From a virus: a DNA stretch of 23,578 nucleotides. The notes under the pieces were generated by a model. It saw only the letters and a list, made by a program, of their open reading frames with translations. It ran no database searches and was not told the origin of the DNA. Within the stretch, counting starts at the first letter, position 1. Each line of letters begins with the position of its first letter. This document shows positions 4,591-10,414 of this stretch, in pieces. The stretch is from the IMG/VR virus record IMGVR_UViG_3300031857_001424, positions 1 through 23,578 of that record. One strand, given 5' to 3'. The translations under genes and the position numbers were made by a program.

Positions 4591-6841
4591 TTGTAATCAA
4601 TTCTGGATATAACGATAAAACTGTTAAAGGTAAAGGTTGAGTTTGACGAACATAGATATATCCATCTGTTTCGTAATTGCCTCTAAACTCAACTTCCTTA
4701 TCCCCAGTATATACAGGAATAGCTGTATCCATTAATTGTGCTGAGGATCTAAATGGAATAGCTTCCATATTAGACAAGTTTGGTCCAACTTCTACACCAA
4801 TAGACTCATAAAGTCTAACTGTAATATTGTATATTCGTTTTGTTTTAGCTTGAGATGTACCATTTTGAGATCCAGCATCTATTCTCATAGTTTGTAATAT
4901 AGATGTATAAGGTAAACCAACTTTAACTTTAGTAGATGATCTTGCTAAAGTAATAGATCCATTAGTTACTGTTCTATCAGGATGCGTTGAACCATTTGCA
5001 AGAACAGATACAGTTTGCCCCTCAAGATGATCTAAGCCAGTAATAGTAGTCGTTGCAGATCCAGAATAAGATAACTGCGAATCTAAAAAATTAAATGTTG
5101 TGTTATCTGTTTCTGTAAAATCAAATTGATTAATGTATTCTACATAACGTCTTGTAACACCATTGATTGTACGTTTAATAATAACCCATGTTTGATATTC
5201 TTTATCGTTAGTTGGAATTGTTGCTACAGTTTCGCATACAGCATTACCTGTGCTGAATGCACCACCAAATATATGTCTATGCCAAGCAACAACTTGTTGT
5301 TCTCTTTGATAAGTTAAACCAGCTAATTGACCATCTTCTCTTACAGCCCAGATAATTTGATTAGGTTCTTGCTGATAAGATAATTCATTAAAACCAGTTT
5401 CAGAAATATGTTCAGCTAAGATTGTCATATCAGGTGCAACATAACCATCAACATCAAAGTTATAAGCTAGTTCTCTAATCTTTCTTTTAGCACGCTGTAA
5501 AAATAAAGTTACGTTACCAACTGGAATAGCATCTGTATTTGCACAGCCATGGTTAGATTGTTTTTTAATTAAAATATTTGTTGGAGTAATAGGATCATCT
5601 GTACCACCTCCTGATACTGAAAACTCACCACCTACTGTTCCTACAATTAATGTTCGTGTTGCAGATAAGAAACGAACTGCATTAACTTGGTTAGAAGCGA
5701 TTGTATAAATAATTGCATCATCATCTGCAATCGTTCCACCTCTATTCTCGTGCATGTTTTCATAATCTCCTGATTTAGAAAAATATAAAGTTTGCGGTTG
5801 TGATTCTGTTCCTGCAAATACTAATCGTTGTTCATAAAAGGTTACGCAAGAAGGATGTCCAGTAGTATCTGAAAAAGCTCCTAATGCCCAGTCATTGGTA
5901 GTAGAGGAAGAACCCATATCTTTTATAACTGTTGCTGTTACAACTGTTGTGCTAGTAATAGCTGTAATTTCTCCATAACCATCTCTAAAAGTAAAAAGTC
6001 TACCAACATCAGTAGATTGAAAACCTGTATCATTATTAATTCCAGTTACAGCAGATGCTGTTAATGTTCTTCCTGTTCCAACAGTATGTGAAGACATACC
6101 AAATGTTGTGGTTGTAGTATTATCATCTAAGTATGGTCCATCAGTAAAATCTACTTCTGTAATAGTCCAAGAGGTATGACCAGTTCTTGATAATTTTTTA
6201 ACTGAATAATCAGGATGACATAAATACATAACATCTGCTGATTGAGCATATTTAATTTGAAATAGATCTGCAGTTAAATAAGTTGTGCTTATTTGATAAA
6301 CTCTATTTGCAACACCACCAGATGTATAAGCAGTGTAAGATGTTGTGTTTACATTTGTTCCATCAATGGTTTGTAATTCAAATGTATTAGCTGTTACATT
6401 TGCTACTTTAAATCTTTTACCATTTACTTGTGTCATTCCTACAACACCAGAAATAACAATAGTATTTCCATTAGAATAACCATGAGCTGTTGATGTAACA
6501 ACACCTGGGTTTGCTTGAGTAATACCTGTAATTGTTTTATTGGATTCTAATATTGCACCACCATCTTTATAAAAACGAATATACTGATCACCAAATTCTA
6601 AGATGTAAGTTTGTGTTGTTGAAAATTCAAAAGGGATTAATCTTGTTTTCTCTGCAGAGTTTTCTACTTCTGCTACAAAGTTTGTACCTGGTCTTCTAGA
6701 TGCAGAACCATGAGGATAAACAATCATGTTCTGTAATGTTTTGCAACCAGATGAATATTTAGCTAAATCATTTCTACCATCTAGTCGTGGTGATAATTCA
6801 CCCCCTGTAAAGTTTGTTAATTGTACCGCAACTCTAGCCAT
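4580..6841 (-). CDS. Tail tubular protein B / tail nozzle-like protein (T7 gp12-like)
   Basis: 753 residues. The N-terminus MARVAVQLTNFTGGELSPRL, followed by GRNDLAKYSSGCKTLQNMIVYPHG and ASRRPGTNFVAEV, is the well-known start of the podovirus tail protein family that makes the tail tube nozzle. A Thr/Asn/Gly-rich beta segment near residues 100-180 (GVVTSTAHGYSNGNTIVIS) resembles the inserted beta domain found in many family members. The centre has KYAQSADVMYLCHPDYSVKKLSR and ASNQVNAVRFLSATRTLIVGT, also typical. It lies six bases after the tail tube A gene, the usual order. Length fits the family (about 700-800). The protein would form the lower tail through which DNA and core proteins leave. 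Confidence 0.88.
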   Translation of the reverse strand: MARVAVQLTNFTGGELSPRLDGRNDLAKYSSGCKTLQNMIVYPHGSASRRPGTNFVAEVENSAEKTRLIPFEFSTTQTYILEFGDQYIRFYKDGGAILESNKTITGITQANPGVVTSTAHGYSNGNTIVISGVVGMTQVNGKRFKVANVTANTFELQTIDGTNVNTTSYTAYTSGGVANRVYQISTTYLTADLFQIKYAQSADVMYLCHPDYSVKKLSRTGHTSWTITEVDFTDGPYLDDNTTTTTFGMSSHTVGTGRTLTASAVTGINNDTGFQSTDVGRLFTFRDGYGEITAITSTTVVTATVIKDMGSSSTTNDWALGAFSDTTGHPSCVTFYEQRLVFAGTESQPQTLYFSKSGDYENMHENRGGTIADDDAIIYTIASNQVNAVRFLSATRTLIVGTVGGEFSVSGGGTDDPITPTNILIKKQSNHGCANTDAIPVGNVTLFLQRAKRKIRELAYNFDVDGYVAPDMTILAEHISETGFNELSYQQEPNQIIWAVREDGQLAGLTYQREQQVVAWHRHIFGGAFSTGNAVCETVATIPTNDKEYQTWVIIKRTINGVTRRYVEYINQFDFTETDNTTFNFLDSQLSYSGSATTTITGLDHLEGQTVSVLANGSTHPDRTVTNGSITLARSSTKVKVGLPYTSILQTMRIDAGSQNGTSQAKTKRIYNITVRLYESIGVEVGPNLSNMEAIPFRSSAQLMDTAIPVYTGDKEVEFRGNYETDGYIYVRQTQPLPLTVLSLYPELITNDG

Positions 6842-7856: not shown

Positions 7857-7882
7857 ATAGTGGGGATTTTACTCCCCACTAT
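7857..7882 (-). terminator. Strong hairpin after the capsid gene pair (terminator/attenuator or processing site)
   Basis: A perfect 10-base-pair inverted repeat: ATAGTGGGGA (7857-7866), loop of six, TCCCCACTAT (7873-7882). Four consecutive G-C pairs in an A+T-rich genome make it stand out. It lies 13 bases after the stop of the capsid-associated gene and ends seven bases before the start codon of the next gene. On the minus-strand transcript no U-run follows (it reads CTATTAATG), so it may be an attenuator, an RNA-end stabiliser or a processing site rather than a canonical intrinsic terminator. T7 has a terminator (T-phi) after its capsid gene at a similar place. Confidence 0.6.
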
Positions 7883-8415: not shown

Positions 8416-9288
8416 TTATTCGTCGCAAGCGATTTCTACAACTTTTTCTTCTTCCATTCTAGTTGCACCAATGCTCATAGCGTAATAAACTTGAGTGCTG
8501 TACGATTTGTCAGCTCTCTCATCAATTCTAGCTAGAACATCTTGACCAACCGCTAATTTAATAGCGTCTTGTGTGAAGGCGTAACATAGTCTGTCGTCAG
8601 TGTTAGTTGCATCAAACTTTAATCTATTGCTAACAATAAATTTAAAACCTAGGAAAGAGTCTAATTGTCCCTGTGCTAGTGCTTTAACTGTATTGAAATC
8701 AGCAGATGTGATTTGCGTTGTGCCTAATAAATCAGAGATTTGTTTTGGTCCACATACAATATATCTTTGTATAGATGGATCAACATCATTTAAATCTAAG
8801 ATTTTTTTAGCTTCTAATAGTTTAGCAATTGTTAAACCATCAGTTTGTGATGCAGTATATGGTTTTTGACCAGATGGAAGCGATACAGAAGTAGATCCAG
8901 TTTCACCTGAAAATGCTGTTCCGCCTAAAGCTGTGATGATTACATCATCCATCGCTCTTCCCATAGCAGCAGCCGCAGCTTTTGCATAAGAAGATGTTGG
9001 ATCAATTAATAATCTAACTTTATCTGCATTGTCTATTAGATCTGCCCACTCGTAGTCTGCAAGACTTACTCTTCTTCTTGAGTGTGGTGTATCTAATTGT
9101 GGAGTGTCAGCATGACGAGATGTTCTCAATTGAGCAGTTGTTTTACCAACTTGATCAAAGAAAGCATTCTTTCCTACTACTGACTCAACATCCACAGCTC
9201 CTCTTAAATACGATCCCATTTGTTGAGATAGCATTTGTACGTTTGAACTGTACTGCTGTACAAAAGCAGTTGTTATTTGATTTGACAT
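8416..9288 (-). CDS. Major capsid protein
   Basis: 290 residues. The pattern SNQITTAFVQQYSSNVQMLS, then GSYLRGAV, KTTAQLRTSRHADTPQLDTP and HSRRRVSLADYEWADLIDNAD is characteristic of the podovirus major capsid family (Phage_capsid_2-like, HK97 fold). The C-terminal part carries DDRLCYAFTQDAIKLAVGQDV and ends with ATRMEEEKVVEIACDE, also usual. It follows the scaffold-like gene after a structured leader of about 255 bases, the longest gap in the late operon, consistent with separate control of an abundant product. The ribosome site AAAGGAAA lies 7-13 bases before the start. Confidence 0.9.
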   Translation of the reverse strand: MSNQITTAFVQQYSSNVQMLSQQMGSYLRGAVDVESVVGKNAFFDQVGKTTAQLRTSRHADTPQLDTPHSRRRVSLADYEWADLIDNADKVRLLIDPTSSYAKAAAAAMGRAMDDVIITALGGTAFSGETGSTSVSLPSGQKPYTASQTDGLTIAKLLEAKKILDLNDVDPSIQRYIVCGPKQISDLLGTTQITSADFNTVKALAQGQLDSFLGFKFIVSNRLKFDATNTDDRLCYAFTQDAIKLAVGQDVLARIDERADKSYSTQVYYAMSIGATRMEEEKVVEIACDE

Positions 9289-9342
9289 AGTGTCATTTCC
9301 TTTTGTTAAGTTAAGTTTAAGTTTAGTTTCAGAAAGTTCCCC

Positions 9343-9411
9343 ACCTTATAGATAGGCTATCTTGCATTTAACGACTGTTAGTCGGTTGTCTTTCCAACAG
9401 GCATGTAAGGT
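9343..9411 (-). ncRNA. Cloverleaf-like structured RNA leader upstream of the capsid gene (candidate)
   Basis: On the minus-strand transcript a closing stem ACCUUA (9411-9406) pairs with UAAGGU (9348-9343). Inside are three hairpins in order: GUUG/CAAC with a GAAAGA loop (9398-9385), CGACU/AGUCG with an AAC loop (9384-9372), directly abutting the first, and AGAUA/UAUCU with a GCC loop (9362-9350). Between the last two is the unpaired stretch UUAAAUGCA. It is not a tRNA: the loop and arm sizes do not fit and no T-loop sequence is present. It sits 55 bases upstream of the capsid ATG. A role in capsid mRNA translation, stability or processing is inference. Confidence 0.45.
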
Positions 9412-9431
9412 TCTAATAGAATTGTCTTACA

Positions 9432-9469
9432 ATTTCTAAGAAGATTTAATTAAAAATCTCCCTAGAAAT
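9432..9469 (-). promoter_or_regulatory. 16-bp hairpin in the scaffold-capsid intergenic region
   Basis: The minus-strand RNA can form a stem of 16 pairs: AUUUCUAGGGAGAUUU (9469-9454) with AAAUCUUCUUAGAAAU (9447-9432) around a UUAAUU loop. Two of the pairs are G-U, which exist only in the minus-strand RNA (the plus strand would have A-C mismatches), so the structure fits the late transcript. Possible roles are an RNase III processing site, as T7 uses between genes, or a transcription attenuator. Confidence 0.5.
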
Positions 9470-9544
9470 CGCAATATAGTATTTTTGATTTGATTGCAAT
9501 AAGATTATTGAGATAGCTTTTATTGCAAGCAATAAATTAATAGC

Positions 9545-10414
9545 CTATTGGCTAAGCATTTCTCTTAATGCTAGCACCTGATTAACTACTTTGTTGTGAT
9601 TAGGGTGCATTTTATTCCAATAAGCACCTTGTCTATCAGATGTTAATTCTTCAATTTCTTTCTCAACATCTCTACCTTGAAGAATATTTTCGGCTTCTGT
9701 ACCGATAATTTTATCTTCAGATAATAGATTAGCAATATTAGCAAATGCTTTAATGATCTTTGGATTATCACCTAATCTAGATCCATCTCTTAATTGAGTA
9801 TCAAGAAGTTCTGGTTCTAAATAAGTTTGAGCAACATTGGCAGCTTTTCTTAAGTTGTCATCGTATGCTCTTCCCCATTCAGCTCTTAAAGCATTAGTAG
9901 CTTCAGCTTGTGCAGATTCCATATTCACTGCCATTTCTTTTGCTGAACCTTCTAATGTTGATTTATAAAACTCTAGAATACCTTGAGCTTGTTTATTATT
10001 TAAACCTAGCTTGTGAGCATTCTGTGCGAATCCTTTGATTATATTTTCATCAACAGGAGCAACATCAGTTTTAAGTTCTAAAGTATATTTATCAGGAGAT
10101 TCTGGTCTGCCTAATTTATTATATACTTCATTCCACTGTTCATCTGTTGCAGACTTTCCTGGAAGAGGAATCTTATCAGTTCCAATCATAGATACTGCAT
10201 TGATGTAGCTTTTAGCTAGTGCATCTAATTCAGTAAACTTTTCTATATTTGGATTTGATCTGTACTCTTGTGAGATTGCTTCTTTCCAAGTCTTACCAGA
10301 AAGTGGTTGAGTTGGTTGTTGTGTTGTACTTAGTATTGGTGGTGTTGCTGTTGCGGTTGTTTGTTCAGTTGCAACAGGCTGAGTTACCTCAGTTGTCTGT
10401 ATTTGTTCTGACAT
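9545..10414 (-). CDS. Capsid assembly scaffolding protein
   Basis: 289 residues. The N-terminal 45 residues are low-complexity Thr/Gln/Pro-rich. Then comes a typical podovirus scaffold pattern: WKEAISQEYRSNPNIEKF, LAKSYINAVSMIG, IPLPGKSATDEQWNEVYNKLG, PESPDKYTL and a long helical part with LRAEWGRAYDDNLRKAANVA. The acidic helical C-terminus resembles the capsid-binding end of scaffolds. It lies just upstream of the capsid gene and downstream of the Bbp19-like and portal genes, the usual order. It would direct procapsid assembly and then leave or be degraded. The gene ends next to a short 5-bp hairpin (UAGCC/GGCUA). Confidence 0.82.
   Translation of the reverse strand: MSEQIQTTEVTQPVATEQTTATATPPILSTTQQPTQPLSGKTWKEAISQEYRSNPNIEKFTELDALAKSYINAVSMIGTDKIPLPGKSATDEQWNEVYNKLGRPESPDKYTLELKTDVAPVDENIIKGFAQNAHKLGLNNKQAQGILEFYKSTLEGSAKEMAVNMESAQAEATNALRAEWGRAYDDNLRKAANVAQTYLEPELLDTQLRDGSRLGDNPKIIKAFANIANLLSEDKIIGTEAENILQGRDVEKEIEELTSDRQGAYWNKMHPNHNKVVNQVLALREMLSQ

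Follow-up and report, generated by a model that had tools for sequence, protein, structure and literature searches.

The window analysed here, a stretch of 23,578 nucleotides, is an ocean-derived fragment of an HTVC010P-type pelagiphage, a relative of the SAR11 phage HTVC010P, and its capsid protein is 74% identical to that of HTVC203P. The late genes lie on the minus strand in the order terminase, portal, scaffold and capsid, with an intergenic gap of 255 nt (9290-9544) ahead of the capsid gene (Table 1). The scaffold assignment also draws on relatives, in which the gene so annotated has a matching position and size. On the same strand, a hairpin, GTGGGGAGTAAAATCCCCAC, is found at 7860-7879, 3′ of the gene that follows the capsid gene. 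We note that HTVC034P (L149) has a textbook intrinsic terminator at the position of this hairpin, downstream of its capsid gene, a placement comparable to that of T-phi in T7.

Table 1. Genes and RNA features around the capsid leader of the window, listed from the capsid gene upstream.
Feature	Position	Strand	Basis
Major capsid protein gene	8416..9288	-	Pfam Phage_capsid_2 (PF19821), E 2.9e-97; PHROG 3437, major head protein
Ribosome-binding site AAAAGGA and capsid start ATG	9286..9304	-	Sequence
G-free unstructured spacer (0/27 G), RNA element to ribosome-binding site	9302..9328	-	Sequence
P4/P5 (module 2), AGAUAG-C-CUAUCU/AGGUGGG-[GGA]-A-CUUUCU	9331..9362	-	Covariation, helices 5-7
J3/4, UUAAA(U), unpaired, nearly invariant	9363..9372	-	Invariant A columns in leader alignment
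P3, CGAC-UAACA-GUCG, abuts P2	9372..9384	-	94.8% of cells paired
P2, GUUG-GAAAGA-CAAC, conserved loop GAAAGA	9385..9398	-	4/4 pairs change on both sides
P1 (module 1), GUAAG-[ACA]-A.C wobble-UUC..GAA-C-CUUAC, 3-nt bulge on 5′ strand	9405..9430	-	Covariation, helices 1 and 2
P0, 17-bp AU-rich hairpin GAUUUCUAGGGAGAUU/AAUCUUCUUAGAAAUU, directly upstream of P1	9431..9470	-	Both-sided changes in clade members
Promoter-like block TATTGCAATCAA...TATATTGCG, just after the scaffold stop codon	9470..9501	-	Conserved in about 30 distinct clade contigs; flanks vary
Capsid assembly/scaffold gene, upstream of capsid	9545..10414	-	PHROG 3742; weaker match to PHROG 458, 'protease'

Read on the late strand, the gap holds a structured RNA of about 110 nt (approximately 9321-9436), made up of the bulged hairpin P1, the abutting hairpins P2 and P3, and P4/P5, which has a bulge of its own and is joined to P3 by a conserved UUAAA. 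P5 is a hairpin set within P4, the 3-nt bulge is on the 3′ strand, and P4 carries a conserved 1x1 mismatch (U.U in the window). When 9321-9432 is folded, P1 and P5 each form with a pairing probability of about 0.9. A structured, conserved RNA in this gap and on this strand had been proposed in an earlier note made from the sequence alone, and both the position and the idea are borne out. The fold drawn there, a cloverleaf confined to 9343-9411, was too narrow in its boundaries and differs in its helices. Its two abutting hairpins are P2 and P3; its third hairpin, GAUAG/CUAUC, is not conserved, and the conserved helix in its place is P5 (CCUAUCU/AGGUGGG), for which the haplotypes of close relatives supply compensating variants (CCUAUCU-AUA-AGGUGGG, CCUAUC-AAU-GAUGGG and CCUGU-UU-ACAGG). 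The isolated 69 nt do fold as first drawn, and the 6-bp closing stem (ACCUUA/UAAGGU) has a pairing probability of 0.6-0.8 there; with flanks, in any longer stretch tested, this falls to 0.00, and we conclude that the stem is an edge effect of cutting the sequence at 9343-9411. Its column pairs hold in 14/48, 17/28, 10/15, 1/6, 1/7 and 8/21 leaders, and the 3′ arm UAAGGU is found in only one of 16 leader haplotypes of close relatives. Both arms are used elsewhere, ACCUUA as the 3′ strand of P1 and UAAGGU as part of P5. The check for compensatory changes in related phages, which the same note had recommended, thus supports P1-P5 and refutes the closing stem and with it the cloverleaf. A pseudoknot between the P2 loop (GAAAG) and CUUUC was considered and dropped because the CUUUC strand belongs to P4. 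The leaders of L004 and L143 carry a tandem duplication of part of P1 (GAACCTTAT..GGAACCTTAC), apparently a recent insertion tolerated in the upper stem.

Folding energy is not unusual compared with shuffled sequence (z -1.21 for the 69 nt, z -0.41 for 112 nt), so the case for the structure rests on covariation. We aligned, by sequence only, the leaders of 48 distinct relatives, including the isolates HTVC010P, HTVC203P, Lederberg, HTVC100P and Skadi. The 23-pair structure is paired in 84% of cells against 63% in shuffled controls, 22 of the 23 pairs change on both sides, and double-change cells number 253 against 94 shuffled; the shuffles, like those used below for the module, ignore relatedness, which inflates the statistics. 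The covariation score is 0.621 against 0.257 for shuffles and 0.240 for the best slid control, and whilst reading the structure partly from the same 48 sequences gives it an advantage over slid versions, this bias could not by itself produce so wide a margin. A 27-mer taken from the centre of the element has exact matches in 67 viral contigs and lies directly ahead of the same capsid start wherever the contig reaches the gene. A covariance model (R1) gives one strong match per pelagiphage locus searched, always in front of the capsid gene: 78.8 bits at 9321-9436 in the window and 78.6 bits at 5752-5868 as the single match in the complete HTVC010P genome, where the end of gp08, the preceding gene, extends over P1 and part of P2. 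Weak extra matches (12-17 bits) after the capsid gene were, on inspection, terminator-like hairpins or chance. The suggestion of a conserved phage mRNA element is thus upheld by strong covariation and by its single occurrence before the capsid gene in all pelagiphage leaders searched. The element is neither a tRNA nor a tmRNA as judged by ARAGORN, and it matches no known riboswitch or ribozyme: Rfam 15 gave no match in the window or in 40 loci from relatives, permissive searches returning weak matches far below gathering scores. We found no description of the element in the open-licence PMC papers searched.

P1 and P4/P5 share a motif in which a 3-nt bulge adjoins an A-C or G-U wobble pair. 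In P1 the bulge (consensus AUA/ACA, third base A) is on the 5′ strand with the wobble next to it, and in P4/P5 the motif is on the 3′ strand. With any base allowed at the wobble position of P1, the distinct leaders show A.C 38 times, G.U six times, other combinations three times, and A-U or G-C never; a position at which A.C and G.U replace each other to the exclusion of Watson-Crick pairs is what one expects where wobble geometry is required. The corresponding position in P5 is A.C in 69, A-U in seven and G.U in two (covariance model alignment), A-U being accepted here as well. The strand that carries the bulge differs between groups (5′ in both modules of ZP6, 3′ in both of Baldr, one of each in the pelagiphages). 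Modules occur in either orientation and with very different linkers, and their recurrence does not establish one global geometry. In a contig binned as Chloroflexi (L432), three near-identical tandem modules (GGC-C-CCGG..CCGG-NYA-A-GCC) precede the capsid gene, upstream of the match at 1501.

The same two-module plan, with other linkers, is found before related capsid genes in Vibrio CKB-S2 and K300/H1, Alteromonas ZP6, Baldr, and freshwater and soil contigs. Of 22 independent GTDB loci, none of which played a part in defining the motif, 14 have module 2 a short way ahead of the capsid gene (shuffles: mean 1.28, maximum 4), as do seven of 11 other phages (shuffles 0.15); the module's background rate is 37/758 windows (4.9%). 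Because a few leaders are misplaced in them, the sequence alignments made for the Baldr and soil clades were left out of the counts. R1 has no significant match in ZP6, K300 or CKB-S2, so this model does not span the clades, and the proposed homology between the pelagiphage element and the distant leaders is argued from a short module and its position. The element is absent from phages in which the scaffold gene abuts the capsid gene (L397 and L398), and a strict pattern scan of bacterial genomes gave no matches. Nine alphaproteobacterial loci, several from rumen samples (L410, L412, L414, L416, L417, L418, L420, L423 and L431), have a plain intrinsic terminator with a T-run and no two-module element, and these terminators sit immediately before related capsid genes. 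In a second Baldr subgroup (L286-L365, for example L287, L289 and L351), GAAUAGGUAG just 3′ of module 1 can be paired by eye with CCCCUAUUC near the ribosome-binding site; this pairing closes the whole leader, and its variants covary.

In some lineages, module 2 has a second possible partner. In the L379-L390 clade its 3′ strand is complementary to the Shine-Dalgarno region (mean -13.5 kcal/mol against -4.8 shuffled), with partner swaps equally good in only 2 of 2000; in L381, for example, GGAUAACCUUUCC pairs with GGAAAGGUUAUCC. Strong Shine-Dalgarno pairing is also seen in L158, L373, L430, L433 and L438 (p 0.005), and in L429 the strand can, by eye, form an intrinsic terminator (GGGGACAAUCC...GGGUUGUCCCC-U7). 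Since one strand is shared, the fold and the OFF structure would be mutually exclusive in these lineages. In the window's clade neither a Shine-Dalgarno nor a terminator switch is visible: pairing with the Shine-Dalgarno region averages -3.6 kcal/mol against -3.0 shuffled (mean z -0.27), and none of 73 leaders reaches p<0.01. Sequestration of the Shine-Dalgarno sequence as a general mechanism was rejected by pairing tests for the window, Baldr and rumen sets.

Upstream of P1, the window's clade has two further features. The conserved block TATTGCAATCAA...TATATTGCG could be read as a -35 element (TTGCAA) and a -10 element (TATATT) separated by 15 nt; our sigma-70 scan, which needs a spacer of 16-18 nt, does not call it. 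The block is a possible non-consensus late promoter of pelagiphages. P0 is confined to this clade, and we regard it as a candidate 5′-end stabiliser or RNase III site. Elsewhere, a near-consensus sigma-70 promoter lies just upstream of the element in Vibrio K300 (a score reached by 0.2% of background windows) and ZP6 (0.1%), and Vibrio H1 and the Baldr group have a strong match (about 1% of background windows). In all four, two stem-loops stand directly downstream of the promoter match; in the window, the only counterpart of that match is the promoter-like block.

What was observed directly is a covarying fold on the late strand, placed once ahead of the capsid gene, and a module that recurs in distant relatives. 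From these findings we favour, with rather more conviction than doubt, the reading that the element belongs to an undescribed family of cis-regulatory capsid leaders in which a trans-acting factor would be bound by both modules and would determine capsid expression. A conserved fold that is absent from Rfam and recurs before the capsid genes of distant phages probably controls the amount of capsid. We suggest that P1 and P4/P5 would each offer the same recognition module, the 3-nt bulge ending in A beside the required A.C/G.U wobble, and that both would be bound by a putative factor, either a phage protein or conserved host machinery. The factor would stabilise the fold and so set expression of the capsid gene, most likely at the level of translation or mRNA. 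In the distant clades, where the module 2 strand pairs alternatively with the Shine-Dalgarno sequence or (in one case) the 3′ half of a terminator, the fold would be the ON state; in the window's clade, the fold would be followed by the G-free stretch as a ribosome-loading spacer. The missing switch in the window's clade and a folding energy no better than that of shuffled sequence both count against this reading. A broader proposal, which we make tentatively, is that these leaders form a large undescribed class of RNA sensors or operators for one gene, that of the podovirus major capsid, whose building block is a wobble-bulge module that can stand in either orientation and is present twice (in L432, three times), with lineage-specific outputs (ribosome-binding-site sequestration, a terminator, or none visible).

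Other functions can be imagined for the same structure. The nascent two-module RNA could, in the manner of put RNA, bind host RNA polymerase just after a late or capsid promoter, so that the enzyme is less prone to pause or terminate along the long late operon. In favour of such a role, two bulged hairpins follow directly on strong sigma-70 matches in Vibrio K300 and H1, Alteromonas ZP6 and the Baldr group; the complete genomes of these phages have no annotated phage RNA polymerase; HTVC034P has a terminator downstream of the capsid gene; and HK022 putL offers a precedent, consisting of two stem-loops right after PL (PMC9378689). On the other hand, the element keeps its place immediately ahead of the capsid gene in cases with no evident promoter, and Shine-Dalgarno pairing in several clades points to translation. 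Membership of the put family itself was rejected, as R1 has no match in HK022 and putL and putR lack the G-NNA-R/Y-C module; overall, we consider antitermination of this type fairly unlikely. A passive role at the 5′ end of the mRNA, in which P0 and P1-P5 only protect or process the capsid message (as an RNase III site or 5′-end stabiliser) and give the ribosome a standby site, would fit the compensated 17-bp P0 directly upstream, the promoter-like block before it and the G-free spacer. However, the invariant unpaired bases and the wobble-bulge constraint exceed the needs of a generic stabiliser, and P0 is absent outside the window's clade; we consider this explanation unlikely.

The earlier note had also raised a separate small RNA, here one released from the late transcript to act in trans. 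The compact, conserved fold of about 110 nt would suit one, but the element adjoins the capsid ribosome-binding site with no terminator seen 3′ of it, ahead of the capsid gene, in this clade, is always tied to the capsid start, and in other clades pairs in cis with the Shine-Dalgarno sequence; we find no support for this idea and think it very improbable. Least credible of all is a DNA-level packaging or replication signal whose palindromes merely resemble RNA structure. One copy per genome in a fixed place is what such a signal would show, yet G.U/U.G cells outnumber A.C/C.A cells (102 against 64), favouring the late RNA strand, and neither the bulge and wobble constraints nor the alternative pairing with the ribosome-binding site in relatives agrees with it.

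The HTVC010P-type pelagiphages rank among the most abundant marine viruses. We know of no described late-gene regulation for them, and a search of open-licence papers found no literature on the subject. A conserved RNA directly before the capsid gene offers a concrete, testable control point. The module precedes the capsid gene in phages and prophage-like loci of Vibrio, Alteromonas, Ensifer and Nevskia, as well as in Pelagibacter-binned sequences, a spread that points to an RNA family of old origin and wide occurrence which Rfam lacks. Should the class of sensors or operators be real, capsid dosage in some of the most abundant phages of the ocean would be set by an RNA switch responding to a factor from phage or host.

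As a proposed structured cis-regulatory leader the element is of a known kind, although no described family was found in the open-licence papers. In T7, the message of the major capsid gene (gene 10) is headed by a leader that is structured upstream and rich in A/U/C between that structure and the ribosome-binding site, an arrangement which the present element shares; to our knowledge, the T7 leader is not a covarying two-module RNA, and T7 transcription uses promoters for its own RNA polymerase. Riboswitches and ribosomal-protein leaders with Shine-Dalgarno or terminator platforms are matched by the pairing in L379-L390, L430, L433, L438, L373 and L158 and, by eye, by the terminator of L429, but the candidate has no known ligand, protein or Rfam match, and the window's clade has no visible platform. 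The hallmark of put RNA is binding to the zinc-binding domain of the RNA polymerase beta′ subunit and suppression of termination. Like the present element, putL and putR of HK022 are phage-encoded structured RNAs of two bulged hairpins, and putL follows PL much as the elements of several relatives directly follow a strong sigma-70 promoter. The put RNA of HK022 includes non-canonical C.A and G.U pairs (PMC9378689), but its bulges and non-canonical pairs are placed differently and it lies after early promoters, not before the capsid gene. We suggest that the element perhaps works like put, and more likely as a leader switch or operator.
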